Positions 11,967 through 46,286 of a DNA stretch of 48,609 bases are shown here, piece after piece. The stretch is from an uncultured Lachnospiraceae bacterium (GTDB lineage: Bacteria; Bacillota; Clostridia; Lachnospirales; Lachnospiraceae), in assembly GCA_947179245.1 (NCBI GenBank), contig CAMXBD010000005.1, positions 1 to 48,609 of the forward strand, in the 5' to 3' direction. Position numbers and translations under genes: made by a program. The first letter of the stretch is position 1, and every line of letters begins with the position of its first letter. Under the pieces are notes generated by a model that saw nothing but the letters and a program-made list of their open reading frames with translations, was not told the DNA's origin and searched no databases.

Positions 11967-11970
11967 ATTA

Positions 11971-12316
11971 AGTAGAATAAATGATCGCGGCTGTACAGAC
12001 GCAAGGGTACAGGTGAGGAAAGTCCGGGCTTCACAGGGCAGGATGCCGGATAACATCCGGTGGAGGTGACTCCAAGGCTAGTGCAACAGAAATAATACTG
12101 CTACGCAACGCTGCGTAGTGATGGTGGAATGGCAGTGTAAGAGACTACCGCTGCAACGGTAACGGTGCAGGCTGTGTAAACCCCATCCGAAGCAAGACCA
12201 AAACGAAAGCGACAGATTTGCCCGATCTGCTTTCAGGTGGGTCGCTTGAGGTATCCGGTAACGGATATCCTAGATAGATGATCATTCACGACATAACCCG
12301 GCTTATCGTTCTGCTT
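11971..12316 (+). ncRNA. rnpB: RNase P RNA, bacterial class A
   Basis: The catalytic RNA of RNase P, which trims the 5' leaders of pre-tRNAs. The conserved 5' core GAGGAAAGTCCGGGCTTC with CAGGGCAGGATGCC starts at about 12014. The 3' core includes ACATAACCCGGCTTAT near 12290-12305. P1 is formed by 5' AAGTAGAA (11970-11977) and 3' TTCTGCTT (12309-12316), which closes the molecule at about 346 nt. The arm sequences CTACGC/GCGTAG (12101-12118) and the loop GTGTAAACCCC are in the expected places for class A. Ends are approximate to a few bases. Confidence 0.95.
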
Positions 12317-12333
12317 AATTTCTATAAATTTAT

Positions 12334-20382: not shown

Positions 20383-20424
20383 AATAAAAGTAAATAAGCT
20401 TGTTTACAATATTGACAATAAATA

Positions 20425-20709
20425 TTAAACCTGTGAGAAAGAGTAGTAGAGGCAGTGAAACTGGTACAGAGAGCCGCAGTTGGTGGGAAGCGGTACAGTG
20501 ATCGTCTTGAATGGGCTTTCGAGGCTGACCTGAAATAACAGTAGGAGTCGGCGGGAACCGTACCCGTTATCAATGCGGCATATATACATCGACATCGATT
20601 TGTATGTGATAAGAGGTGGACGTCATCTTATGATGCGTCAAGTTGAGTGGTACCGCGATAATAAGTTTAGTTTATTACCGTCTCAGACATTTGTCTGGGG
20701 CGGTTTTTT
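20425..20709 (+). promoter_or_regulatory. T-box riboswitch, tryptophan specifier (UGG)
   Basis: A leader that senses uncharged tRNA. Stem I begins with GAGAAAGAGTAGTAGAGGCAG near 20436, includes the distal loop region AGAGAGCCGCAGTTGGTGGGAAG, and holds the specifier in CTTGAATGGGCTTTCGAGG, where TGG (20512-20514) follows the conserved GAA: tryptophan. The T-box sequence GTGGTACCGCG lies at 20647-20657. The terminator hairpin ACCGTCTCAGAC...GGGGCGGT with six T runs from 20677 to 20709. When Trp-tRNA is uncharged the antiterminator should form and the ABC importer genes be transcribed. Known Trp T-boxes precede trp and trpXYZ genes. The start of the leader is approximate. Confidence 0.92.
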
Positions 20710-23627: not shown

Positions 23628-23673
23628 CGGGAATATTTTTGATAATTATATAAGAGAGTTAGAGTAATGGTGA

Positions 23674-23702
23674 AGAGTCTGCTTTTTTGCGGGCTCTTTT
23701 TG
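23674..23702 (+). terminator. Intrinsic terminator after trpXYZ
   Basis: AGAGTCTGC (23674-23682) pairs with GCGGGCTCT (23689-23697), with G-U pairs, and is followed by five T. Confidence 0.85.
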
Positions 23703-23715
23703 TATCCTTTTTTGT

Positions 23716-23744
23716 GTCATAACTTGGACAAAGGTTCATATATT
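23716..23744 (+). promoter_or_regulatory. Possible sigma-E promoter of the spoIIIA operon
   Basis: GTCATAA (23716-23722), 14 bases, CATATATT (23737-23744). The -10 matches six of eight positions of the sigma-E consensus CATACAMT, and spacing is as expected. In B. subtilis spoIIIA is sigma-E dependent. It lies 19 bases before the first start codon. Confidence 0.5.
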
Positions 23745-23763
23745 GAGATAAGGGGGAATGGGG

Positions 23764-24714
23764 ATGAGGCAGGAAGAGGTACTTTATATGTTCCCTGAAT
23801 CCATGCGCAGCCAATGGGAATGTACGGCAAAACAGGCGGACAAACTACAGGAGATCAGACTTCGGGTAAATGTACCCGCGGCGGTACTGATCAATAACAG
23901 AGAGTGGTTTCTGGATACAGAAGGCCGGCTGGTGGACATGCCGCCACATGGAGCCCAAAATAGACCGGAGGAATTGGAGCAGATATTAAAACATTTGTGC
24001 CAATATTCGGTATATGCTTTTGCAGATGAGATACGGCAGGGGTTTTTGACGATACAGGGCGGGCATCGTGTGGGGCTTTCCGGGCAGGTTATTCTGGAAG
24101 GAGACGGCAAAGTGCGAAATTTAAAATACATACGTTATTTAAATATCCGTATGGCACATGAAATCAAAGGAGTGTCAGATGTTATTCTTCCGCATCTTTA
24201 TAATAAGAGCGGACAGGTACTCAATACCTTGTTGATTTCACCGCCGGGATGCGGAAAGACTACTATGCTGCGTGACATGATCAGAAATCTGTCTGATGGA
24301 ACAAAGTACGGTAAAGGAGTAAATGTCAGCGTGGTGGATGAGCGGTCGGAGATAGCGGGCAGTTACCTCGGAGTTGCACAGAACGATGTAGGAATACGGA
24401 CGGATGTATTGGACGGCTGCCCGAAGAGGGAAGGCATGATGATGTTGATCCGTGCCATGGCGCCACAGGTTCTGGCAGTGGATGAGCTGGGAAATGAAGA
24501 TGATATTCAGGCACTTCGGATGGCAAGTGGATGCGGATGTAAGCTGATTGCTACGGTTCATGGCGGTTCGTTGGAAGAAATTAAACATAAAAAATACATG
24601 CGTAATGTTATCGAGGATGGATTGTTTGACCGTTATCTGGTACTTACAAAACGAAACGGGCGCTGTGAAGTGGAAGGTATCTATGATGGAGAAGGAGAGA
24701 GATGCTTAAATTAG
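23764..24714 (+). CDS. spoIIIAA: Stage III sporulation protein AA (secretion-type ATPase)
   Basis: A 316-residue cytoplasmic ATPase of the type II/IV secretion superfamily that powers the SpoIIIA-SpoIIQ channel between mother cell and forespore. Walker A is SPPGCGKTTMLRDM (near residue 158), Walker B MAPQVLAVDELG, and the conserved Asp/Glu box VVDERSEIAGSYLG is present. The start at 23764 is chosen because AGGGGG leaves seven bases to it and one to the ATG at 23758. The N-terminal part (RLRVNVPAAVLI, GLSGQVIL) matches the family. It overlaps spoIIIAB by 13 bases. Confidence 0.95.
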   Translation: MRQEEVLYMFPESMRSQWECTAKQADKLQEIRLRVNVPAAVLINNREWFLDTEGRLVDMPPHGAQNRPEELEQILKHLCQYSVYAFADEIRQGFLTIQGGHRVGLSGQVILEGDGKVRNLKYIRYLNIRMAHEIKGVSDVILPHLYNKSGQVLNTLLISPPGCGKTTMLRDMIRNLSDGTKYGKGVNVSVVDERSEIAGSYLGVAQNDVGIRTDVLDGCPKREGMMMLIRAMAPQVLAVDELGNEDDIQALRMASGCGCKLIATVHGGSLEEIKHKKYMRNVIEDGLFDRYLVLTKRNGRCEVEGIYDGEGERCLN

Positions 24715-25220
24715 CGGGAATCCTATGCATTCTGGCAGGATGCATAGGATTGGGAGGCAGTAAGATCAGGGAGGAGCGGTGCAGAGTGGAGCATTTGCGT
24801 GAACTGATCCGTATTATTAAGAGGATTCAGAACGAGATCAGCTATGGCAAGCATACCTTACCGGAAATATGCCATATCCTGTCAGAATATAGTGATGTAC
24901 TGTATCAACCGCATTTTAGGATAATCTATGAGCAGATGGAACAGGGAAACGGCATTTGTCTGGCACAGGTGTGGCAGCAAGAGATGGAACAGTGTCTGAA
25001 GGAGATTCCTCTTTTGAAAGAGGAAAAGTATATTCTCATTAATTTACCCCGGAATCTGGGAATGCCGGAGGAGAAACAGCAGGCAGAGAGTATCGGTCAG
25101 TCTCTGGATTTGCTTATGAGAAGATGCAGACAGGCTGAGGATGCCTATGATAATAAGTCCAGAATGATATTCAGCGTCAGTCTGCTTGCCGGAATTTTTT
25201 TGACAATTCTGTTGTTATAG
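24702..25220 (+). CDS. spoIIIAB: Stage III sporulation protein AB
   Basis: A 172-residue membrane protein: N-terminal hydrophobic segment (LAGILCILAGCIGLGGSKI), a helical cytoplasmic domain with LRELIRIIKRIQNEISYGKHTLPEI and a C-terminal hydrophobic segment (IFSVSLLAGIFLTILLL). This matches the SpoIIIAB family, GspF-like part of the SpoIIIA channel. It starts inside spoIIIAA. Confidence 0.9.
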   Translation: MLKLAGILCILAGCIGLGGSKIREERCRVEHLRELIRIIKRIQNEISYGKHTLPEICHILSEYSDVLYQPHFRIIYEQMEQGNGICLAQVWQQEMEQCLKEIPLLKEEKYILINLPRNLGMPEEKQQAESIGQSLDLLMRRCRQAEDAYDNKSRMIFSVSLLAGIFLTILLL

Positions 25221-25264
25221 CGGGAAGACACAAGAGTATGAAACACTTCAGAATGGAGGATAAG

Positions 25265-25459
25265 ATGAGTGTAAGTCTTATATTCAAGATTGCGGCGGTC
25301 GGTATCTTGGTTACAATATTAAATCAGGTTTTAAAGCATAGCGGCAGAGAAGAACACGCTTTCCTGATCAGCCTTGCCGGATTAATTCTTGTTTTAACAT
25401 GGATCATTCCCTATATCTATGATTTGTTTGTGATGGTACAGGATCTGTTTACTCTATAA
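25265..25459 (+). CDS. spoIIIAC: Stage III sporulation protein AC
   Basis: A 64-residue membrane protein with two hydrophobic segments (IFKIAAVGILVTILNQVL and LISLAGLILVLTWIIPYIYDL), as expected for SpoIIIAC. The start at 25265 has GGAGG well placed; the longer frame to 25238 adds nine residues without hydrophobic character. It ends with a stop overlapping the region of spoIIIAD's ribosome site (TAATG). Confidence 0.9.
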   Translation: MSVSLIFKIAAVGILVTILNQVLKHSGREEHAFLISLAGLILVLTWIIPYIYDLFVMVQDLFTL

Positions 25460-25473
25460 TGACAGGGGTGAGA

Positions 25474-25863
25474 ATGATGGAAATGGTCAAAATAGGGCTG
25501 ATAGGAGTGATCGGGATACTGCTTGCCGTACCTTTAAAGAGCTATAAGGCGGAATTTGGCACTTACATAGCAATTGCGGTATGTCTGGTCATCTTAGGGT
25601 ATGCACTGCAATATTTCTCCGGGATACTGTCGGCGATAGAGCAGCTTCGAGGATATCTGCAGGATAACTACAGTTATTTAACGGTGCTGCTGAAAGCTGT
25701 GGGAGCTACCTATGCTTGTGAGTTCTGCGCGGGAATCTGCAAAGATGCGGGTTACGGCGGCATTGCGGGACAAGTTGAGATGATTGGTAAACTATATATA
25801 TTGTTGACCGGAATGCCTGTGCTTATGGCACTGCTTGAGAGTATACAATCGATTGCGGGATGA
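25474..25863 (+). CDS. spoIIIAD: Stage III sporulation protein AD
   Basis: A 129-residue membrane protein with several hydrophobic segments: VKIGLIGVIGILLAV, GTYIAIAVCLVILGYALQYF, and LYILLTGMPVLMALLESI. The middle region YLTVLLKAVGATYACEFCAGICKDAGYGGIAG is characteristic of SpoIIIAD. The start at 25474 follows GGGGTG; an ATG at 25459 overlapping spoIIIAC's stop is possible but has no ribosome site. Confidence 0.9.
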   Translation: MMEMVKIGLIGVIGILLAVPLKSYKAEFGTYIAIAVCLVILGYALQYFSGILSAIEQLRGYLQDNYSYLTVLLKAVGATYACEFCAGICKDAGYGGIAGQVEMIGKLYILLTGMPVLMALLESIQSIAG

Positions 25864-25882
25864 AAGAAAGGCAGGGTTGTGA

Positions 25883-26950
25883 ATGGGAGTTGAGGGAAGC
25901 AGTCTGCTTTGGGATGAGATGGGGATGGATGCTGTTACAATTGATTTCAAGCAGCTGTTTCCGGAATATACATTCGATGGTAAGACTGTTATGGAACTGA
26001 TTCTGACAGGGAGGCTTTGGGACGCGGTAAAAGAACTCGGAAGTGGGATAACTGGTGCAATTTATTTTCAGACAGAAGAGATTAAGACATTATTTTTTAC
26101 GATTCTTGTGCTGGGAATTGTGGCGGCGCTTTTTGTAAACTTTGCGGATTTGTTTCAAGATCATCAGGTATCTGATATTGCTTTCTATTTTGTATACCTG
26201 CTTATGATCGCGGTGCTTTTAAAATCATTTGTCAGTGCGGCTTCTGTCGTACAGGAGATATTGGAGACAGTCACAACATTTATGAAGCTTTATATTCCTA
26301 CTTATATTGTGGCGGTGGGAAGTGCGTCGGGTATTGCATCAGCATCGGTTTATTATCAGATATTATTGTTTATCGTTTATCTCATAGAATGGGGATATCT
26401 GTCCATACTTCTGCCTGTAGTGTATGGTTATATACTGCTGACAATCATTAACGGTGTGTGGATGGAGGAGAAACTGACGCTTCTTTTGGAACTGCTGGAT
26501 AAGATAATCAGTGTATGTCTTAAGGTTACTTTAGGTATTATAACCGGCTTTAGTATATTACAGGCAATGATATCTCCTGTTATTGATTCTTTGCAATCCT
26601 CGGCGGTCAAGAAGGCGATGTCGGCAATTCCCGGAATCGGCGGGTTGACTGAGGGAATGTTTGAGATGGTTGTCGGGTCAGCGGTTCTTGTCAAAAACAG
26701 TATCGGGCTGTATATCACGTTTGTATTGATCGTTTTGTGCTGTATACCTGTTTTAAAACTCGTGATGTTTATGGGGGTCATCAAAATCAGCGCGGCATTG
26801 ATCGGTATAGTCACTGATAAACGTATGACCAACTGTGCTGACCGGGTGGGAAACGGTAACATGATGCTGTTAAAAATCGCACTGTCCTCTATCGGAATGT
26901 TTGTGATACAGATTGCAATCATTACCTATACGACGAGCGGAGGAATGTAG
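25883..26950 (+). CDS. spoIIIAE: Stage III sporulation protein AE
   Basis: A 355-residue multi-pass membrane protein with about seven hydrophobic segments, matching SpoIIIAE (core membrane component of the channel). Seen: FFTILVLGIVAALFVNFADLF, KLYIPTYIVAVGSASGIASASVYYQ, and the C-terminal GIVTDKRMTNCADRVGNGN loop. The B. subtilis protein has an N-terminal signal peptide; here residues 1-60 carry no hydrophobic stretch and an upstream in-frame TGA rules out a longer protein. Whether that matters is unknown. Its stop overlaps the GTG start of spoIIIAF. Confidence 0.92.
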   Translation: MGVEGSSLLWDEMGMDAVTIDFKQLFPEYTFDGKTVMELILTGRLWDAVKELGSGITGAIYFQTEEIKTLFFTILVLGIVAALFVNFADLFQDHQVSDIAFYFVYLLMIAVLLKSFVSAASVVQEILETVTTFMKLYIPTYIVAVGSASGIASASVYYQILLFIVYLIEWGYLSILLPVVYGYILLTIINGVWMEEKLTLLLELLDKIISVCLKVTLGIITGFSILQAMISPVIDSLQSSAVKKAMSAIPGIGGLTEGMFEMVVGSAVLVKNSIGLYITFVLIVLCCIPVLKLVMFMGVIKISAALIGIVTDKRMTNCADRVGNGNMMLLKIALSSIGMFVIQIAIITYTTSGGM

Positions 26951-27633
26951 TGGTGAACATGTTAGAGAATATCAGGCGTATTGGTATATTTATGATTGCG
27001 GCGCAGACGGTAATGCATTTTGCAGCGGGAAAGCAGTATGAGAAATATATGAAAATAATATCTGGCGTTATTGTACTGCTGCTGTTTATTGCTCCTTTTG
27101 TTTCATCCACTGAGGACATCGCTGCAAAATGGCAGGAAGAAGTAGAGAAAATGACGGAACAGACAGCACGTATAAACAGTATGTGGCAGTCGGAGGAATA
27201 CACTGTCAATTATGCGCAAACAGCGGCTTTGAGGCAGATTGAGAGAGAAGTTAAAACAAGACTAAATGAGATGATTGCGGATTGGGAATATTATGTTGAA
27301 GACATATCGATTGAATTGGAAGAAACTGATCAAAATGCGGGCTTTTGGACAAAGGAAGGTGAGTATGGCAGGGAGTTTCAATGTGTCAGAATCACACTGC
27401 GGAAACAGATGAGTGGTGAAGATGGCATGCAGAATCAAGATGTGGCAAATAAAATACAGAGTATACAGATAGAAGAGATTGAGATTGGAGAGACGAAGAC
27501 GCCAGATGCAGAACATGAAGAAGAGAGGGATTCAGCTTATGATATGGAGATAGAAGAGTATAGGCATTTTTTTGCACAGACACTAGGTATAGCTGAGGAC
27601 AGAGTGGAGGTGTCATATTATGGAGAACAGTAA
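26950..27633 (+). CDS. spoIIIAF: Stage III sporulation protein AF
   Basis: A 227-residue membrane protein with two N-terminal hydrophobic segments (IGIFMIAAQTVMHFAAG and ISGVIVLLLFIAPFV) and a long soluble part. The segment INSMWQSEEYTVNYAQTAALRQIEREVKTRLNEMI followed by VEDISIELEE is the ring-building-motif-like domain of the family. The start is GTG at 26950, six bases after GGAGG; a second GTG at 26953 is possible. It overlaps spoIIIAG by 14 bases. Confidence 0.88.
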   Translation: MVNMLENIRRIGIFMIAAQTVMHFAAGKQYEKYMKIISGVIVLLLFIAPFVSSTEDIAAKWQEEVEKMTEQTARINSMWQSEEYTVNYAQTAALRQIEREVKTRLNEMIADWEYYVEDISIELEETDQNAGFWTKEGEYGREFQCVRITLRKQMSGEDGMQNQDVANKIQSIQIEEIEIGETKTPDAEHEEERDSAYDMEIEEYRHFFAQTLGIAEDRVEVSYYGEQ

Positions 27634-28264
27634 GGCGCTGCCGGAGAAACTGACAGAAAAGCTGACAGGTGGAAAAAAACTCAGAAAGGACCAGTGTCTG
27701 ATCATTATATTAGCAGGGGTACTGTTATGTGTGATCGCTCTTCCTGTCAAACAAAAAGAGTCAGAGTCCAATTTATCGAACATCATTAATGATACAATCG
27801 ATAATCATATTCCCGCAGACGTGGCGGATGCCTATCCGGAGACGGCAGGTACAGTGTCTTCCTATGCAGGATATTGGGAAGATAAGCTGGAAGATGCATT
27901 GAAGGATGTAGAGGGAGTCGGTAAGGTATAGGTTTTGATTAATTTAAAAGAATCAGAACAGAAGATTGTGGAGAAGGACGGACCCGAAGAGTATTCTGAG
28001 ACGGCGGAGACAGATGCGGCGGGCGGTAACCGTACGATTGGCGAGACGAAGGTGGAGAAGAATACAATCTATACTGCGGATGACAGAGGACAGAATGTAC
28101 CGTATGTGGTAATGACCATAGCCCCTACGGTGGAAGGTGTGGTAGTGATCGCACAGGGGGCGGGACAGCAAAGTGTACAAGAGAATATAATCGAAGCAAT
28201 TCAGGTATTATTTGATATAGATGCGAATAAGATAAAAATAGTAAAGATGAAAAATAATCAGTGA
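27620..28264 (+). pseudogene. spoIIIAG: Stage III sporulation protein AG, interrupted by in-frame TAG
   Basis: SpoIIIAG forms the large ring of the feeding-tube channel in the intermembrane space. The frame at 27620 gives the basic N-terminal tail, the membrane segment (IIILAGVLLCVIALPV), the linker, and WEDKLEDALKDVEGVGKV, then TAG at 27929-27931. The same frame then continues without a shift: V-L-INLKESEQKIVEKDG, the expected next strand of the ring-building motif, through PYVVMTIAPTVEGVVVIAQGA to the end at 28264. Intact family members read through here (GVGxVxVMI). Together the two parts would make about 214 residues, the normal length. Either a nonsense mutation (CAG or GAG to TAG) or a sequencing error; a TTG at 27935 could restart the C-terminal part, but it would lack its membrane anchor. 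Other genes here end with TAG, so recoding is unlikely. Confidence 0.85.
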
Positions 28265-28277
28265 AGGGGAGAAAGAA

Positions 28278-28994
28278 TTGAAAAATATGATCAAGAAGAA
28301 CCAGATGATGATCACGGCGCTGGCTATCATGATTGCCGTAGCAGGCTATTTGAATTTTGCAGGCACCAAAGTAACAGATGAGGATATTATGTCCGTGAAC
28401 GGCACGATTACTACCGATGATATGGGGAATCCGACACTGGACGGTGAAGAGACGGACTATGCAGCTTTTACGGATCTGTCGGATGAGGATATTGAACAGG
28501 CTTCCGGAGATATCAACAGTCTGGATCTGGATGTGACCATGGCGGAGAACAGCGGTGTTGATGAGGAACTGGCAGAAGCGCTTGCTGAGGAACAGATGGA
28601 GGAGGTACCGGGGGAGGCTGTGTTTACCTCTGCAGGTACAATCTCTGAATTATCGGGCGCTAAACTACAGAAAGAGCAGACACGTGCGCAGAATAAAGAA
28701 ACACTTTTAGAGATTATCAACAATACGAATATCAGTGAGACACAAAAGCAGGAAGCGGTAAACAGTATGATCTCCATGACAGATATTGCAGAGAAAGAAA
28801 CTGCTGCGGAGATTTTATTGGAAGCAAAAGGATTCGAGGATGCGATCGTGAGCATAGACGGAGACAGCGTAGATGTGGTTGTCAATACTACAGAATTAAC
28901 GGAGGCACAGCGGGCGCAGATCGAAGATATCGTCATACGTAAGACAGGCGTCAGTGCGGAATCAGTCATTATCAGTACAGTCAATTCAAATTGA
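28278..28994 (+). CDS. spoIIIAH: Stage III sporulation protein AH
   Basis: A 238-residue bitopic membrane protein whose extracellular domain binds SpoIIQ. A single hydrophobic segment (MMITALAIMIAVAGYLNF) is followed by a long acidic region and a C-terminal ring-building-motif domain with LLEIINNTNISETQKQEAVNSMISM, LEAKGFEDAIVSIDGDSVDVVV and a final ESVIISTVNSN. The start is TTG at 28278, six bases after AAGGGGAG; the next ATG at 28287 is too far from the site. It is the last gene of the spoIIIA operon. Confidence 0.9.
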   Translation: MKNMIKKNQMMITALAIMIAVAGYLNFAGTKVTDEDIMSVNGTITTDDMGNPTLDGEETDYAAFTDLSDEDIEQASGDINSLDLDVTMAENSGVDEELAEALAEEQMEEVPGEAVFTSAGTISELSGAKLQKEQTRAQNKETLLEIINNTNISETQKQEAVNSMISMTDIAEKETAAEILLEAKGFEDAIVSIDGDSVDVVVNTTELTEAQRAQIEDIVIRKTGVSAESVIISTVNSN

Positions 28995-29014
28995 GTGCAA
29001 GAAAAGAAATTTTG

Positions 29015-29023
29015 TGATATAGT
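29015..29023 (+). promoter_or_regulatory. Extended -10 promoter candidate for deoB
   Basis: TG (29015-29016), one base, TATAGT (29018-29023), without a convincing -35 at the right distance. A similar AAGAAATTTTGT run precedes it and precedes the Asp23 gene's -10. Confidence 0.4.
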
Positions 29024-29064
29024 GTACTATGGTGCATTAAGAAATACAGAGAGAGAGGCTAATG

Positions 29065-30216
29065 ATGAAAAGAGTTTTTTTGATTGTTTTGGATAGTTTT
29101 GGAATCGGAGAGATGGAGGACGCGGCTGAGTATGGCGACAAGGGCACGAATACTATCAGATCCGCAGCATCAAGTCCGAAATTTAATATGCCTAATATGG
29201 GTGCACTTGGACTTTTCAATATTGATGGGGTAGACTGCAGGGAAGCTGTGAAGCAGCCTGTAGCAAGAATAGCCCGTATGAAAGAGGCATCCAAAGGTAA
29301 AGATACTACTATAGGACACTGGGAGATTTCGGGAATCTTATCCAAGCAGCCGCTGCCCACCTATCCTAATGGATTTCCTAAGGAAGTGCTGGATGCTTTC
29401 AGCGCTGCAGTGGGCAGAGGAGTGCTGTGTAACAAACCCTACTCAGGGACGGAAGTAATCAAAGATTACGGAGATGAACATGTAAAAAGTGGCGATCTGA
29501 TTGTATATACGTCGGCAGACAGCGTGTTTCAGATCGCGGCACACGAGGATGTCGTTCCGGTGGAGACATTATATGAGTATTGTAGGATTGCAAGAGGCAT
29601 TCTTCAGGGGAAACATGGTGTAGGAAGAGTGATTGCAAGGCCGTTTATAGGTACAAGCGGCAGTTATACCAGAACGTCGGGGCGCCATGATTTTTCTCTG
29701 GAGCCTCCGGCGGTCACAATGTTAGATCAGCTTAAGGATGCCGGTAAAGCCGTGATTTCTGTAGGTAAGATTAAAGATATCTTTGCGGGCAGGGGAATCA
29801 CAGAATATGTGTATACCAAAGGTAATGCAGAGGGAATCGATAGGACGCTGGAATATCTGGATCGTGATTTTGAGGGACTCTGCTTTATCAATCTGGTTGA
29901 TTATGACATGCTGTACGGGCATCGTAATGATATAGACGGTTATGCCGCCGCCCTTACTTATTTCGACGAGAAACTTCCTAAGATCCTCGGTAAACTGAGA
30001 GACGAAGATGTTCTGATGATCACGGCGGATCACGGATGCGATCCGGGCTATACGGTGTCTACGGATCATTCGAGAGAGCATACACCTTTTATTATGTACG
30101 GCAAGACAGTGGCGCCTGCGAACCTCGGAACAAGGGATACTTTTGCGGATATCGGAGCGACCGTTCTTGACTATTTTGGAATTAAACCGGAGTTTGCCGG
30201 TACATCTATGTTATAG
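29065..30216 (+). CDS. deoB: Phosphopentomutase
   Basis: Interconverts (deoxy)ribose-1-phosphate and -5-phosphate in nucleoside salvage. A 383-residue cytoplasmic enzyme of the alkaline phosphatase superfamily: N-terminal metal site RVFLIVLDSFGIGEM, the active-site region GKDTTIGHWEISG with the phosphorylated Thr, cap domain with RPFIGTSGSYTRTSGRHDFSLEPP, and C-terminal VLMITADHGCDPGYTVSTDHSREHTPF with the Asp/His metal ligands. The start at 29065 is six bases after GAGAGAGG. It is followed by prfC with an 18-base gap. Confidence 0.97.
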   Translation: MKRVFLIVLDSFGIGEMEDAAEYGDKGTNTIRSAASSPKFNMPNMGALGLFNIDGVDCREAVKQPVARIARMKEASKGKDTTIGHWEISGILSKQPLPTYPNGFPKEVLDAFSAAVGRGVLCNKPYSGTEVIKDYGDEHVKSGDLIVYTSADSVFQIAAHEDVVPVETLYEYCRIARGILQGKHGVGRVIARPFIGTSGSYTRTSGRHDFSLEPPAVTMLDQLKDAGKAVISVGKIKDIFAGRGITEYVYTKGNAEGIDRTLEYLDRDFEGLCFINLVDYDMLYGHRNDIDGYAAALTYFDEKLPKILGKLRDEDVLMITADHGCDPGYTVSTDHSREHTPFIMYGKTVAPANLGTRDTFADIGATVLDYFGIKPEFAGTSML

Positions 30217-30234
30217 AGGCTGGAGGATAAAGAC

Positions 30235-31827
30235 GTGGGCAATTATGCAGACGAGATTAACAAAAGAAGAACTTTTGCGATCATATCGCACCCGGATGCG
30301 GGTAAGACAACTTTGACAGAGAAATTTCTTCTGTACGGTGGAGCAATTAATCTGGCGGGCAGCGTAAAAGGTAAAGCTACTGCAAGACATGCGGTTTCCG
30401 ATTGGATGGAGATAGAGAAGGAGAGAGGTATTTCCGTTACTTCTTCTGTGCTTCAGTTTGAGTATGACGGTTTTTGTATCAATATTCTGGATACGCCGGG
30501 CCATCAGGATTTCTCGGAGGACACATACAGGACTTTGATGGCTGCGGACTCTGCAGTCATGGTGATTGATGCATCCAAAGGTGTGGAGGCGCAGACGCGC
30601 AAATTATTTAAGGTCTGCGGCATGCGGCATATCCCGATTTTTACGTTTATCAATAAGATGGACAGGGACGCCAACGATACCTTTACCCTGCTTGATGAGA
30701 TTGAGAAAGAACTGGGGATCGCCACATGTCCGATCAACTGGCCGATCGGATGCGGCAAGAACTTCAAAGGTGTTTATGAACGTGAGAGCAGATGTGTTAT
30801 CACCTATACAGACACAGAGAAAGGAACTAAGGAAGGACATGCTACGCGTATTCCAGTCACGGAAGAGGATACGCTGCTTGCGCAGATAGGAGAAGAATAT
30901 AAGGCGCAGCTTACTGATGAGATAGAGCTTCTGGACGGAGCCAGCGCAGAGTATGATCTGGAGAGGATTCAGGCTGGTGAGCTTACACCCGTATTTTTTG
31001 GGTCGGCTCTTACGAATTTCGGGGTAGAGATTTTCTTACAGCATTTCTTGAAAATGACTACGAATCCTCTTCCGAGAAAAGCGGATATTGGTTTGATCGA
31101 TCCGGTGGAACATGATTTCTCGGCGTTTGTATTTAAGATTCAGGCAAATATGAACAAGGCGCATAGGGACAGAGTTGCATTTATGCGTATCTGTTCAGGC
31201 AGGTTTGACGCAAATGCTGAGGTGAAGCATGTTCAGGGTGGTAAAGTAATGCGCCTGTCCCAGCCACAGCAGATTATGGCGGATGAACGCAAAATCTTAA
31301 ATGAGGCGTATGCGGGGGATATTATCGGTGTGTTTGATCCGGGAATATTTTCTATTGGAGACACGATCTGTATGCCGAAGGAACAGTTTGAATATGAAGG
31401 TATACCGACGTTTGCGCCGGAGCATTTTGCCAGAGTACGGCAGATTGATACAATGAAAAGAAAGCAATTTGTGAAAGGAATATCGCAGATCGCGCAGGAA
31501 GGCGCTATTCAGATTTTTCAGGAATTTAATACCGGTATGGAAGAAATCATTGTGGGTGTAGTGGGTGTGCTGCAGTTTGATGTGTTAAAATACAGACTTG
31601 AGAATGAGTATAATGTAGAGATCAAGCTGGAGAATCTTCCCTATGAACATATCCGCTGGATTGAGAATAAGGATATTGATCTGGACAAACTGACCGGAAC
31701 ATCCGATATGAAGAAAATTAAGGATTTGAAGGACAACCCCCTCTTGCTGTTTGTCAATCAATGGAGTATCGGTATGACGATAGAGCGTAACGACGGATTG
31801 ATCTTATCAGAGTTTGGAAGGAACTGA
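30235..31827 (+). CDS. prfC: Peptide chain release factor 3
   Basis: RF3 is the GTPase that recycles RF1/RF2 at termination. The 530-residue protein opens with G1 HPDAGKTTLTEKFL, then the switch region (ARHAVSDWMEIEKERGISVTSS), G3 DTPGHQDFSEDTYR, NKMDRDAND as G4, and GSALTNFGVEIFLQHF, followed by domains II and III with the FVNQWSIGMTIERN end. It starts with GTG at 30235, nine bases after GGAGG. Many Clostridia carry RF3. Confidence 0.95.
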   Translation: MGNYADEINKRRTFAIISHPDAGKTTLTEKFLLYGGAINLAGSVKGKATARHAVSDWMEIEKERGISVTSSVLQFEYDGFCINILDTPGHQDFSEDTYRTLMAADSAVMVIDASKGVEAQTRKLFKVCGMRHIPIFTFINKMDRDANDTFTLLDEIEKELGIATCPINWPIGCGKNFKGVYERESRCVITYTDTEKGTKEGHATRIPVTEEDTLLAQIGEEYKAQLTDEIELLDGASAEYDLERIQAGELTPVFFGSALTNFGVEIFLQHFLKMTTNPLPRKADIGLIDPVEHDFSAFVFKIQANMNKAHRDRVAFMRICSGRFDANAEVKHVQGGKVMRLSQPQQIMADERKILNEAYAGDIIGVFDPGIFSIGDTICMPKEQFEYEGIPTFAPEHFARVRQIDTMKRKQFVKGISQIAQEGAIQIFQEFNTGMEEIIVGVVGVLQFDVLKYRLENEYNVEIKLENLPYEHIRWIENKDIDLDKLTGTSDMKKIKDLKDNPLLLFVNQWSIGMTIERNDGLILSEFGRN

Positions 31828-31870
31828 CGAACAGGCAACAGGGTGTTTAAGTGGTAAAGGGTGGGTGCAT

Positions 31871-33046
31871 ATGAAGAAAACAGGCTTATTATTGACCGGA
31901 ATGCTGATACTTACGGGATGTCTGGCGTACGCATGGCAGACAACTCCCCATCGACAGAGTGATTTATATATGCAGGCAGATCTGGGCGCTATGCAGGAAG
32001 ATGCTGAGCAGCCGGAACAGATTGTAAAGCGTGCGGAAGAGAAGGGATATGCTTACAGTATGCTTTCAGAAAATGAGCAGGTTCTATATCTGGAGATCAG
32101 AGACGCTCTTGTTCAGTTTGAGGAAGATGTGAAGTTGTCCAGTTGTGATAAAAGTGAGATATCACATGCTTTTCAGTGTGTATTGAATGATCATCCAGAA
32201 ATTTTTTATGTGGATGGATATACTTATACAGAATATACACTTGGTGATATTCTCAAAAAGATTACATTTACAGGTACTTACCGATTCAATCAGGATGAAA
32301 TAATTCAGAGACAGGCACAGATTGATAGTTATGTCAACCAATGCCTCGCTGATATGCCAGAAGGTGCGGACGATTATACGAAAGTAAAATATATTTATGA
32401 ATATCTGATTCATCATACAGAATATGATGCTGCGGCAGAAGATAACCAAAATATCTGCTCCGTATTTATAGAGGGGAGATCTGTCTGTCAGGGATATGCC
32501 AAGGCAACGCAGTATCTTCTGGATAAGGCGGGGATATTCTCAACGCTGGTGCTGGGACGCGTGATCGGCGGCGAGGGACATGCATGGAATCTTGTGCAGA
32601 TTAACGGCAAATATTATTATGTTGACACCACATGGGGAGATGCTTCCTATCAGGCGGTAGGTGGCGCTGCCAGCTATCCCGGTGAGAGGATTCCGACTAT
32701 CAATTATGACTATCTGTGTGTATCTACTGAACAGATGAATCTGACTCATACGGTAGACAATGTGGTGGATCTGCCCTTGTGTGATTCGATGGAGAATAAT
32801 TACTATGTCCGGGAAGGACTATATTTCACGCAGTGGGATGAGGATCAGATTAAACGTATCTTTGAGGAAGAGTATGAGAAGGGAAGCGCTTACGTGACGT
32901 TGAAGTGTGCTGACTATGATGTGTATCGGCAGATGCAGGAAGCATTGATTGAGCGTCAGGAAATATTCAGATATCTGGACTGCCCTGACGGGGTAGTATC
33001 TTACTCGGATGATGAGAAACAGTACAGTATGAGCTTTTGGCTTTAA
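31871..33046 (+). CDS. Lipoprotein with transglutaminase-like domain
   Basis: A 391-residue lipoprotein: signal peptide with the lipobox LTGC (Cys17), start at 31871 because GGGTGGG lies upstream and it opens the signal sequence. Residues about 165-260 form a transglutaminase/protease-like core with Cys206 (GRSVCQGYA), His237 (GEGHAWNLV) and Asp252 (YYYVDTTWGD), the normal triad order. Residues 65-160 are helical (SENEQVLYLEIRDAL). The region after 300 has no recognised domain. Expected to act on proteins or peptidoglycan-linked peptides outside the membrane; substrate not known. It lies between prfC and Asp23. Confidence 0.8.
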   Translation: MKKTGLLLTGMLILTGCLAYAWQTTPHRQSDLYMQADLGAMQEDAEQPEQIVKRAEEKGYAYSMLSENEQVLYLEIRDALVQFEEDVKLSSCDKSEISHAFQCVLNDHPEIFYVDGYTYTEYTLGDILKKITFTGTYRFNQDEIIQRQAQIDSYVNQCLADMPEGADDYTKVKYIYEYLIHHTEYDAAAEDNQNICSVFIEGRSVCQGYAKATQYLLDKAGIFSTLVLGRVIGGEGHAWNLVQINGKYYYVDTTWGDASYQAVGGAASYPGERIPTINYDYLCVSTEQMNLTHTVDNVVDLPLCDSMENNYYVREGLYFTQWDEDQIKRIFEEEYEKGSAYVTLKCADYDVYRQMQEALIERQEIFRYLDCPDGVVSYSDDEKQYSMSFWL

Positions 33047-42397: not shown

Positions 42398-43747
42398 GTG
42401 GGCAGATTAATCTATATGACAAAACAGCAGGAAAGAATATATAGAGTTTTTTTGTATTTGGTGCTCATAGCAGCAGTGGCGGCGCTTACAGTATTGGTTT
42501 ATCTAAACTACTGGGATAAAATACCGTCAAGTATTAAAATACGTGCCGGTGTGGAACAGGAACTGGATTTCAAAGTACCTGTTTCTGGGGAAATATATAG
42601 AATTAAGGATGATGCGGCGCAGGCAGCTTATATACCGGAAACTTCAGGTGCAGAAACGCCGGATCAGGCAGTTGAAAGCATATCGGACAGCGTGGAAAGC
42701 ATTCATGTAGATTTCACACATACGGTAAAAGTCAAGGCAAACGAACTTGATACTTATCAGATGAATCTTAAGCTGTTTGGCATTCTTCCTTATAAAAGTG
42801 TAGATATAGAAGTTATTCAGGATAAAATGCTGATTCCTTCGGGCATTCCGATCGGCATCTATGTCAAAACGGATGGAGTGCTGGTGGTGGGAATTGGAGA
42901 ATTTGAGGATAGTGAGGGAAGAAAAGTGTCTCCAGCAAAATATGTGTTGCAAAAGGGAGATTATATATTGAAAGTAAATGGCGAAGAGATTGAGAATAAA
43001 AAGCAGTTTATCAGAATGGTCGAGGAATCAGAGGGCGAAGATATTGTACTGACAATAAAAAGAAATGGTGAAGTTACAGATGTTATGGTCAAACCTGAAA
43101 GCAATCAGAATAAAGATTGGAAGCTGGGAATATGGATCAGGGATAACGCGCAGGGAATCGGAACGATGACCTATGAGGACACAGATCACACCTTTGGCGC
43201 GCTAGGACATGGTATTAATGATGTGGACACCTCGGTGCTGATGAATCTCGACGAGGGAACGCTGTATAAGACGGAGATCGTTGGAATCACCAGAGGCTCA
43301 AACGGTGCGCCGGGTGAGCTGACAGGATATATCGAATACGACAGCGAAAATGTGATCGGTGAAATTACGGAGAATACTTCGGAGGGAATATTCGGGGTTT
43401 GTGATATGGAGGATGAGACAACATCAGGCTTTGAGCCGATACCAATTTCATTAAAGCAGGAAATCGAACTGGGACCGGCACAGATCATCTGTTCTGTCAC
43501 CGGCGAACCGGAGTTCTATGATGTAGAGATTGTTGAAATCAATTTGGAGCGGGATAACATTAACAGGGGAATCGTCGTACAGGTGGTGGATGAGAAACTG
43601 CTTACGCTGACAGGAGGAATCATACAGGGCATGAGCGGCAGCCCCATCATCCAGAACGGTAAGCTGGTGGGCGCGGTGACTCATGTGCTGGTTCAGGATT
43701 CCACGAAGGGGTATGGTATTTTTATTGAGGAGATGCTGAGTCATTAG
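42398..43747 (+). CDS. spoIVB: SpoIVB peptidase (S55 family)
   Basis: A forespore-secreted serine peptidase that triggers pro-sigma-K processing in B. subtilis. 449 residues: an N-terminal membrane anchor (VFLYLVLIAAVAALTVLVYL), a PDZ domain (residues about 150-240; VSPAKYVLQKGDYILKVNGEEI), and the S55 peptidase domain with the catalytic His in FGALGHGINDVD and Ser in the C-terminal GMSGSPIIQNGKLVGAVTHVL. The start is GTG at 42398, eight bases after AAGGATG; an ATG at 42416 is also possible. In many Firmicutes spo0A is next; here the AraC-type regulator follows on the other strand, so that order is broken. Confidence 0.93.
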   Translation: MGRLIYMTKQQERIYRVFLYLVLIAAVAALTVLVYLNYWDKIPSSIKIRAGVEQELDFKVPVSGEIYRIKDDAAQAAYIPETSGAETPDQAVESISDSVESIHVDFTHTVKVKANELDTYQMNLKLFGILPYKSVDIEVIQDKMLIPSGIPIGIYVKTDGVLVVGIGEFEDSEGRKVSPAKYVLQKGDYILKVNGEEIENKKQFIRMVEESEGEDIVLTIKRNGEVTDVMVKPESNQNKDWKLGIWIRDNAQGIGTMTYEDTDHTFGALGHGINDVDTSVLMNLDEGTLYKTEIVGITRGSNGAPGELTGYIEYDSENVIGEITENTSEGIFGVCDMEDETTSGFEPIPISLKQEIELGPAQIICSVTGEPEFYDVEIVEINLERDNINRGIVVQVVDEKLLTLTGGIIQGMSGSPIIQNGKLVGAVTHVLVQDSTKGYGIFIEEMLSH

Positions 43748-43767: not shown

Positions 43768-44730
43768 TTAGGAAAGCCCCCGGTATTCAGCAGGGGAACA
43801 ATCATATTTTTCCCGGAAGATGCGGTAGAAAAAACTGCTGTTATGATATCCTACCGTACTAATAATGGCATCAATGGTCAGATTTGTCTGCGTCAGCAGA
43901 TATACGGATTGCTGGAGTCTTTGCTGCTGCAGCAGTTCCTTAAAGCTGTGTCCGGTATATTTTTTCAGTATACGGCTTACTTGATAATCAGGGAGCCTTA
44001 TCATTGCAGAAATATCTGCGAGTGTTCCGGATTTATAATGGGTCTCAATGTATTTTAAGATGCGGAAAATCATGTCCTGCTCATAGCTGTCGGGATATTT
44101 TTGGATGATAGATTCGGCAAATACGGACAGGTTCATGAAAACCAGCCCCATTGTGATCTGATTAATGGTATTTGTGTTGGGTTTCTTATCGATCAGGGTC
44201 CAAAGCATATTTTCAATCAGATTTTGAATCGGAAGGATATCTTTAGTTGCAAAATGCAGGCAACTGATTTGTGAAGTGTCTTCCGATAAAGTGGAAATTA
44301 GGAAACTGCGCAGTACATTATCCCGTTCAATCATTGTGAGTGCCCTGTCAAAAAATTCCGGAAGAATAATGAAGTTGACTGCGATATCAGCTTCCCCAGC
44401 GGGGAAAATCTCATGGCTTGCCGTCTGGTTTAAAAAGAGAAGGTCGCCGGGATTTAAGACAATCCGGTCTGTGTCATTGATAAGATGCGTGGTGGTTCCG
44501 CTGCACATATATACCATTTCCACATAATTGTGGCGGTGTCTGGGGAAATGAATAAAGCGTGTATGGGGACGGATTTCAATCAAACGTCCCTTTTCTAACA
44601 ACTTGGCATTATCGATTACAAATTCCTTTTTTGATGTGTAGAGCTCTTTTTGTACATTTGAATTTCCGCGCAGGATGGCGGATTCTTCTTCCGTAATTTT
44701 TCTTAAACTCTCTAAAAGTGTCTGATTCAT
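43768..44730 (-). CDS. AraC-family transcriptional regulator, likely of the rhamnose genes
   Basis: A 320-residue regulator. Residues about 45-130 contain a cupin-type ligand domain (FIHFPRHRHNYVEMVYMCSGTTTHLI, GDLLFLNQTASHEI). Residues about 220-318 hold two helix-turn-helix motifs of the AraC type (LADISAMIRLPDYQVSRILKKYTGHSFKELL and LTIDAIISTVGYHNSSFFYRIFREKYDCSPAEYR). Start at 44730 after GAGGTAGG; the frame upstream to 44745 lacks support. It is divergent from rhaB with an inverted repeat in the shared gap, so is the obvious regulator of rhaBAD. The inducer is inferred. Confidence 0.88.
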   Translation of the reverse strand: MNQTLLESLRKITEEESAILRGNSNVQKELYTSKKEFVIDNAKLLEKGRLIEIRPHTRFIHFPRHRHNYVEMVYMCSGTTTHLINDTDRIVLNPGDLLFLNQTASHEIFPAGEADIAVNFIILPEFFDRALTMIERDNVLRSFLISTLSEDTSQISCLHFATKDILPIQNLIENMLWTLIDKKPNTNTINQITMGLVFMNLSVFAESIIQKYPDSYEQDMIFRILKYIETHYKSGTLADISAMIRLPDYQVSRILKKYTGHSFKELLQQQRLQQSVYLLTQTNLTIDAIISTVGYHNSSFFYRIFREKYDCSPAEYRGLS

Positions 44731-44750
44731 AATCCTACCTCGCAAAATGC

Positions 44751-44789
44751 AAATAAGGTCCCTGTTTTTGTCCGGGTATGACCTTATTT
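44751..44789. promoter_or_regulatory. Large inverted repeat between araC-type gene and rhaB
   Basis: AAATAAGGTC (44751-44760) and GACCTTATTT (44780-44789) are perfect inverted repeats of 10 bp with a 19-base spacer, followed by T on the plus strand. The right arm abuts the rhaB -35 region (44784-44789). It could be an AraC-type operator or, as RNA, a terminator-like hairpin, but no plus-strand gene ends here. Confidence 0.6.
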
Positions 44790-44812
44790 TTTTGTATAGT
44801 TTTCTTTATAAT
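44784..44812 (+). promoter_or_regulatory. Probable rhaB promoter (perfect -10, weak -35)
   Basis: TATAAT at 44807-44812. With a 17-base spacer the -35 would be TTATTT (44784-44789), which is poor, as expected for an activator-dependent promoter. Leader of about 45 nt before rhaB. Confidence 0.5.
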
Positions 44813-44861
44813 AAGGCTGAAAGAAGGAAAAGTCTATATTACATTTTAAGGAGGGGTGAAC

Positions 44862-46286
44862 GTGAGCAGGTATTTTCTCGCCGTAGACATAGGGGCATCC
44901 AGTGGAAGGCATATATTAGGACATCTGGACAATGGGAAACTTAAGATTGAAGAAATCTACCGGTTTGAAAATGGAATGGTAAATAAGGGCGGCAGACTGT
45001 TGTGGGACGTGGAGCGACTTTTTGAAGAGATTAAAAATGGTATGAAAGAATGCGTAAAGCTTGGGAAGATTCCGGAGAGCATGTCTGTTGATACATGGGC
45101 GGTGGACTATGTGCTGCTGGATGAAGAGGATCGGGTTTTAGGAGATACCTTCGGTTACCGGGATGAACGGACAAAGGAGTGTGATGCCAAAGTGTACCGT
45201 CTGATTCCAGAGAAAGAACTGTATGCAAGGACAGGAATCCAGAAGCAGATATTTAACACTGTATACCAGTTAATGTCTGATAAAATCCAGCAGCCGGAAG
45301 TACTCATGCGTGCAAAAACATTTCTAATGCTTCCTGATTATTTCCAGTTCCGGCTGACAGGTAAGAAGATGTCAGAGTATACCAATGCCACTTCCACGCA
45401 GCTGGTAAGCCCCGATACAAAACAGTGGGATAAAGAACTGATCCGCAGGCTGGGCTATCCGGAAGAAATATTTCTCCCGTTACAGACACCGGGGACGGAG
45501 GCAGGCTGTCTGACAGAAGAAGTTGCAGGAGAAGTCGGATTTGATTGCAAGGTAGTTCTCTGTAGCAGCCATGATACGGCATCTGCCGTTATGGCGCTTC
45601 CCAAAGAAAAGGGGGACGGGCTTTATATCAGTTCAGGGACATGGTCGCTCATGGGGGTGGAACTGCCGAAAGCGGACTGCAGTGAAGGGAGCAGGCAGGC
45701 AAATCTAACGAACGAAGGCGGCTATAACTACCGATTCCGGTATCTAAAAAATATTATGGGTCTGTGGATGATTCAGTCTGTGAGGCATGAACTGAACGAT
45801 GAATATTCCTTTGCACAGTTGTGCGGTATGGCGGAAGAAAATGAGAATTTTCCGTCTCGCGTAGATGTAAATGATGGCTGTTTTCTGGCTCCGGCGGATA
45901 TGAGATGGGAAATACGGGATTACTGCCGCAGAACCGGTCAGAAGGTGCCGCAGACACTGGGAGAACTGGCAACAGTGATTTACCATAGTCTGGCGGACTG
46001 CTATGGCAGGACGACAGAGGAATTAGAGGAGCTTACAGGGAAGACATATGACAGTGTTTATGTTATCGGCGGCGGCGCCAACGCAGGGTATCTGAATCAG
46101 CTTACAGCAGATGCTACCGGGAAGACGGTTTTTGCGGGTCCGGTAGAAGCAACTGCAATCGGAAACCTGATGGCACAGCTTATCCGGGCAGGAGAACTTT
46201 CCGATTTGACATTCGCAAGAAAATGTATTTATGAGTCGTTTGATATCAAGAAGTATCAGCCGCAGCAGTTATTGAAGAATCCGTAA
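44862..46286 (+). CDS. rhaB: Rhamnulokinase
   Basis: Phosphorylates L-rhamnulose to rhamnulose-1-P. 474 residues of the FGGY kinase family: N-terminal phosphate-binding loop YFLAVDIGASSGRHILG, DTWAVDYVLLD, GYRDERTKECD, and the C-terminal ISSGTWSLMG and VYVIGGGANAGYLNQLTADATGKTVFAGPVEATAIGN motifs. GTG start at 44862, six bases after AAGGAGG; a GTG at 44856 overlaps the ribosome site. First gene of the rhaBAD set, 67 bases before rhaA. Confidence 0.95.
   Translation: MSRYFLAVDIGASSGRHILGHLDNGKLKIEEIYRFENGMVNKGGRLLWDVERLFEEIKNGMKECVKLGKIPESMSVDTWAVDYVLLDEEDRVLGDTFGYRDERTKECDAKVYRLIPEKELYARTGIQKQIFNTVYQLMSDKIQQPEVLMRAKTFLMLPDYFQFRLTGKKMSEYTNATSTQLVSPDTKQWDKELIRRLGYPEEIFLPLQTPGTEAGCLTEEVAGEVGFDCKVVLCSSHDTASAVMALPKEKGDGLYISSGTWSLMGVELPKADCSEGSRQANLTNEGGYNYRFRYLKNIMGLWMIQSVRHELNDEYSFAQLCGMAEENENFPSRVDVNDGCFLAPADMRWEIRDYCRRTGQKVPQTLGELATVIYHSLADCYGRTTEELEELTGKTYDSVYVIGGGANAGYLNQLTADATGKTVFAGPVEATAIGNLMAQLIRAGELSDLTFARKCIYESFDIKKYQPQQLLKNP

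Follow-up and report, generated by a model that had tools for sequence, protein, structure and literature searches.

The spoIIIAG gene of an uncultured Lachnospiraceae bacterium is interrupted by an in-frame amber codon and is otherwise intact. The gene lies in the window, by which we mean the whole stretch of 48,609 nucleotides analysed here (positions 1-48609 of contig C5 of the draft genome G000). What we see is either a gene broken very recently or an error in the sequence, and not a new biological system. The reading we prefer, to which we give a little over an even chance, is a single, very young nonsense substitution that would turn spoIIIAG into a null allele and block the strain at stage III. 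The codon is read here from the draft assembly; its presence in the living strain is an inference.

The reading frame starting with the ATG at 27620 contains 103 codons, is then interrupted by the TAG at 27929-27931 and continues for 110 further open codons to the terminal TGA ending at 28264 (27620-28264, forward strand). The TAG is codon 104 of a 214-codon frame, and no frame change was found across it. This confirms the nonsense codon in the middle of the gene that the original prediction had reported. For search purposes only, the TAG was read through to give a 214-residue query, which in the NCBIfam scan matched positions 6-186 of the 186 positions of TIGR02830 with 123.5 bits (6.4e-36). 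This score is below the curated cut-off of 147.7, but only three of the 259 matching genomes of the family pass that value; the cut-off thus fails to separate the gene of the window from its relatives. Residues 76-210 of the query aligned with the ring structure 5wc3 (1.8e-15), and the TAG is inside the matched stretch, which places it near the start of the ring domain. Since both matches span the TAG, the earlier statements that the two halves belong to the same family and that the break falls near the beginning of the ring domain hold. Homology and coding signal are present on either side of the TAG, which rules out a chance pairing of unrelated frames. The gene resembles SpoIIIAG (TIGR02830, 5wc3) in its nearly full-length profile match, in the ring-domain alignment and in its position between a spoIIIAF-like and a spoIIIAH-like gene, both of which are named by order. 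It differs in the stop at codon 104, which leaves it without a single uninterrupted frame for N-terminal anchor and ring domain, and in its score under the cut-off.

The spoIIIA operon comprises bases 23758-28994 of the window and is encoded on the forward strand, as is spoIVB. The remaining frames of the operon and spoIVB are all open, in line with the original prediction that the neighbouring genes are intact. Two of them score over the cut-off of their family: spoIIIAA (23758-24714, 318 amino acids; TIGR02858, 329 bits) and spoIVB (42398-43747, 449 amino acids; TIGR02860, 372 bits). The matches of spoIIIAB (24702-25220, 172 amino acids; TIGR02833, 3.1e-22) and spoIIIAE (25883-26950, 355 amino acids; TIGR02829, 4.9e-38) are below the cut-offs. 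The spoIIIAC-like (25238-25459, 73 amino acids) and spoIIIAD-like (25459-25863, 134 amino acids) genes were assigned by order and size only. The spoIIIAF-like (26950-27633, 227 amino acids) and spoIIIAH-like (28278-28994, 238 amino acids) genes gave no NCBIfam hit and were assigned by order. DNA identity with a relative locus (L032) is 80.9% over 23672-32266. Sigma-70 matches around the operon did not rise above chance, and a search for terminator-like sites gave none. At the gathering threshold, the Rfam search of the window returned only RNase P and a T-box, namely an RNase P RNA of class A at 11969-12321 and a T-box leader at 20424-20688.

The TAG is private to this genome. A comparison with close relatives had been proposed together with the original prediction, and a TAG shared by the relatives, together with read-through, had been named as one of the observations that would speak against it. 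spoIIIAG was present in 76 of the 77 genomes of the genus searched, and a stop was found in one of these 76, the window's own; in the other 75 the gene contains no stop, and we therefore reject a TAG common to the relatives. An earlier draw of the genus gave the same picture, with the gene in 59 of 60 genomes and the stop again in the window's genome only. The family-wide scan with TIGR02830 covered 397 genomes, 259 of which matched; among the best 150 match rows, on which this count rests and which give no rate, only the window's row contains a stop. At the protein level, 37 relative loci were found, mostly from metagenome-assembled genomes of Lachnospiraceae. One of them misses the stop column, and the other 36 carry arginine (19), lysine (14), glutamine (2) or glutamate (1) there. 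The column is occupied similarly in a further 29 loci, partly from the same genomes (14 lysine, 13 arginine, one glutamate and one glutamine). No second genome of the window's species was found. A 21-residue match of 100% had raised the suspicion that contig C322 of genome G025 (L068) stems from a second strain of the species; identity over 28199-32229 is 79%, so the contig belongs to a different species and is most simply G025's own continuation. The stop region had no match in viral contigs, and no report of such a stop was found in those parts of the spoIIIAG literature that were accessible.

The sequence downstream of the stop shows no sign of decay. The nearest relative available for a comparison of rates was G012, with 78% protein identity (L003). 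Against it, dN and dS are 0.087 and 0.757 after the stop, and 0.202 and 0.977 before it. Among the 95 conserved columns after the stop, two were changed on the window side only and five on the G012 side only; among the 63 conserved columns before it, the respective numbers are four and eight. Neither dN and dS nor the one-sided changes thus reveal relaxed evolution downstream of the stop, which means that the stop is either very young or a sequence error. As in nonsense pseudogenes of bacteria, one stop interrupts a frame that the orthologues keep intact; the missing decay sets the gene apart from them, and it would hence be newborn or not real.

An error would leave precisely such a decay-free region past the stop, and in that case a wrong base call, or a base of a minority strain, was fixed in the metagenome draft while the main allele is intact. 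We regard such a consensus error as a serious possibility, at somewhat less than an even chance. The conservation of spoIIIAG elsewhere in the genus is compatible with it, as is the state of the draft, which is fragmented into 233 contigs (3,398,149 bases, 87.56% complete, 1.53% contamination). We sampled 1,229,708 bases (1.23 Mb), about 36% of the G000 genome, for nonsense codons. We aligned the proteins encoded in 800,000 bases of G012 with the sampled DNA and also ran the search in reverse. In the forward direction, two genes contained an in-frame stop flanked by homology on either side, spoIIIAG and a histidine kinase gene. The latter contains a TAG (L238, 84-86, reverse strand) on contig C24, 86 bases from the contig end. 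This stop is at residue 398 of 428 and inside the HATPase domain (the Pfam domains are HisKA and HATPase_c); identity to G012, the only genome compared, is 23/25 before and 16/25 after it. A codon scan revealed a further gene, HlyD-like with Pfam matches below the cut-offs, that is split by an in-frame TAA (C8:6500; L176, 6500-6502) and forms one continuous frame of 438-485 residues in all 11 relatives. The spoIIIAG stop is thus one of at least three in-frame nonsense codons in about 36% of the genome, and the existence of at least two others in 1.23 Mb also fits a consensus error.

Other results of the same survey speak against an error. By the criteria of the script, none of the 144 forward pairs showed a frameshift under either filter, and none was seen with G000 proteins on G012 DNA (139 or 148 pairs). 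The reverse alignment yielded a single stop in 148 pairs, at residue 12 of a 648-residue query, which we read as a difference in start site; the stop at L221:4017 looks like another such difference. In the codon scan, same-frame pairs lacking an obvious start signal numbered 11 in 1.23 Mb of G000 and nine in 0.8 Mb of G012. The 11 pairs of G000 comprise spoIIIAG, the HlyD-like gene checked against relatives, one pair that was scanned (L176:16916) and eight unproven ones. For L176:16916 and two pairs from the first codon scan (L174:458 and L180:9202), the scanned halves did not show a single family on both sides. Five of the nine G012 pairs were scanned: in L271, L290 and L265 the two sides belong to different families, in L260 neither side has a family, and in L295 only one side has. 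No split gene was demonstrated among these five, of which L260, L271 and L295 remain candidates. By these counts, the control genome G012 does not appear clearly cleaner, and G000 does not seem to stand out. Three nonsense codons per 1.23 Mb would, by our estimate, also be an ordinary load of pseudogenes, for which a share of 3-10% is given for families of Bacilli in the consulted part of PMC10868615. The other nonsense codons of the draft would suit young pseudogenes and scattered consensus errors alike. Some features of the alignments have to be considered when these numbers are read. Rows with multiple stops were treated as shadow frames of the wrong strand and removed by eye, and the second filter removed alignments with more than two stops, spoIIIAG among them. 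The spoIIIAG pair occurs twice, because the query set contained L003 besides L293, and its rows show additional stops at 27584 and 27590, before the ATG, because the query frame of G012 starts upstream.

The intact selection signature after the stop would also be expected if the TAG were decoded as an amino acid, by a suppressor tRNA, as pyrrolysine or through a change of code, leaving the protein whole. Of the three nonsense codons noted, two are TAG, but one is TAA. TAG is also an ordinary terminal stop in this genome: of 883 coding-like segments in the 1,229,708 bases, 268 end in TAG, 391 in TAA and 224 in TGA. The tRNA search gave 21 matches, of which ARAGORN read 20 as distinct genes and left one unread. 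The anticodon CTA occurs in none of the 20, which is weak evidence when taken alone since the draft is incomplete. The relatives have sense codons at the stop column, and taken together we hold recoding to be very unlikely.

Translation of the interrupted gene would end after 103 residues. By eye, the N-terminal fragment (27620-27931, 103 amino acids) contains a membrane segment; it also includes the beginning of the ring domain but would form no ring. As the original prediction had noted, a TTG is located at 27935 with an AAGG eight bases upstream. A restart there would give a frame of 109 amino acids (27935-28264) with most of the ring domain and without the membrane anchor. The start codon lies only six bases after the first base of the stop, which together with the AAGG could be taken to suggest that SpoIIIAG is made in two pieces, the restart yielding a useful second polypeptide. 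The duplex energies argue against this, as the ribosome-binding match of the restart is the weakest of the three starts compared: between a typed anti-SD 10-mer and stretches of 19-22 bases, the value is -6.4 for the TTG restart versus -11.1 for the spoIIIAG start and -8.6 for the spoIIIAH start. Moreover, the second fragment has no membrane segment by eye, and among the 75 other genomes of the genus that have spoIIIAG, not one shows this arrangement. We consider a two-piece protein the least credible of the alternatives, with hardly any chance of being correct. The earlier assessment that truncation would cost most of the ring domain and that a restart product would be unanchored is retained. 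Such a product would be a cytoplasmic fragment, probably unable to replace the anchored ring protein.

With a real stop, the mechanism should be that of an ordinary null allele. According to the parts of PMC4605598 and PMC6934232 available, B. subtilis requires ring formation by SpoIIIAG, and in both this species and C. difficile transcription of spoIIIAG and spoIIIAH also starts at an internal promoter. For a real stop, these two points together argue for a null spoIIIAG allele and a possibly still expressed spoIIIAH. The strain would then be blocked at stage III, while the start signals of spoIIIAH itself might still allow SpoIIIAH to be produced. In the window, a block conserved at the DNA level (28199-28300, forward strand) runs from the last part of spoIIIAG into the first codons of spoIIIAH. 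In its spoIIIAG part, 15 of 20 codons keep their third position at 0.89 or more, compared with three of 26 immediately upstream (up to 36 relatives were compared); for the first codons of spoIIIAH (28281-28302), this is true of only three of seven. The block may be an internal promoter or a translational coupling element.

In weighing the young nonsense substitution, we counted in its favour that the stop is private, that decay and frameshifts are lacking and that TAG is ordinarily used as a stop. The fragmented draft, the other nonsense codons and the single genome of the species were counted against it, as was the region past the stop, which an error would leave in the same state.

The original prediction had further proposed a possible early step in the loss of sporulation. 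This is not what the other genes suggest. The frames of the other operon genes and of spoIVB are uninterrupted, and the matches to SigE (271-residue frame), SpoIVA (510 residues) and Spo0A_C (two copies) contain no stops. spoIIIAG is retained in 76 of the 77 genomes of the genus, and it shows no decay after the stop. The portion of PMC8340488 consulted documents that gut Firmicutes, Lachnospiraceae among them, have lost sporulation, which makes an ongoing, lineage-wide loss conceivable. The former spore-formers described there share with this bacterium that they are gut Firmicutes with lesions in sporulation genes. They have fewer signature genes of all stages, whereas here a single codon is affected and the other tested genes are uninterrupted. 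Lineage-wide loss is a wider form of the young nonsense substitution and overlaps with it in probability; judged from these gene contents it is not supported, and we rate it as unlikely.

An additional observation concerns Spo0A. In 56 of 60 genomes of the genus, the best match to Spo0A_C is a frame of only 175-226 residues; the remaining four have other or partial Spo0A_C copies only. Genome G038 contains an additional weak copy in a frame of 276 residues, and in another genus member (G045, contig C25, 92757-93067) the match is split over two frames. The copy of the window's genome on contig C9 has 172 residues (L120, 1480-1998, reverse strand), and Pfam detected no receiver domain in it. The Pfam check for the receiver was applied to the copies of the window's genome, and those of the relatives (L122-L150) were judged by length and eye. 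The best copies of the genus thus look as if they contain the DNA-binding domain and are too short for a receiver domain. In G012 and several other genomes, the short spo0A gene adjoins spoIVB, whereas in the window's genome it does not. There, the region adjoining spoIVB (43768-46286) contains an AraC-type regulator and a rhamnulokinase gene in place of spo0A; how far spoIVB and spo0A lie apart varies within the genus. In the draw of the family, 82 genomes had a match, and the best copy has at least 260 residues in 66 of them (E up to 3.3e-43) and 177-223 residues in 11; five have weaker matches only. In a different genus of the family, a short Spo0A-like copy (G096, contig C88, 34639-34950) contains an in-frame TAG. 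The literature search for a receiver-less Spo0A gave nothing on point among the matches listed.

A lone private stop in one draft matters little beyond calling for caution when sporulation is scored from metagenome-assembled genomes. spoIIIAG is among the 16 genes that weigh in a published sporulation predictor, as far as the accessible text of PMC12536801 describes it. Should the stop be real and common within the species, it would mark a fresh loss of sporulation. It is improbable, in our judgement, that the stop is already fixed and that the species is at the first step of sporulation loss in a genus whose main Spo0A is already without a phosphorylation (receiver) domain. If this were true, developmental control would have been rewired before the machinery decays. 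The short and apparently receiver-less Spo0A of this genus may merit more attention than the stop in spoIIIAG.
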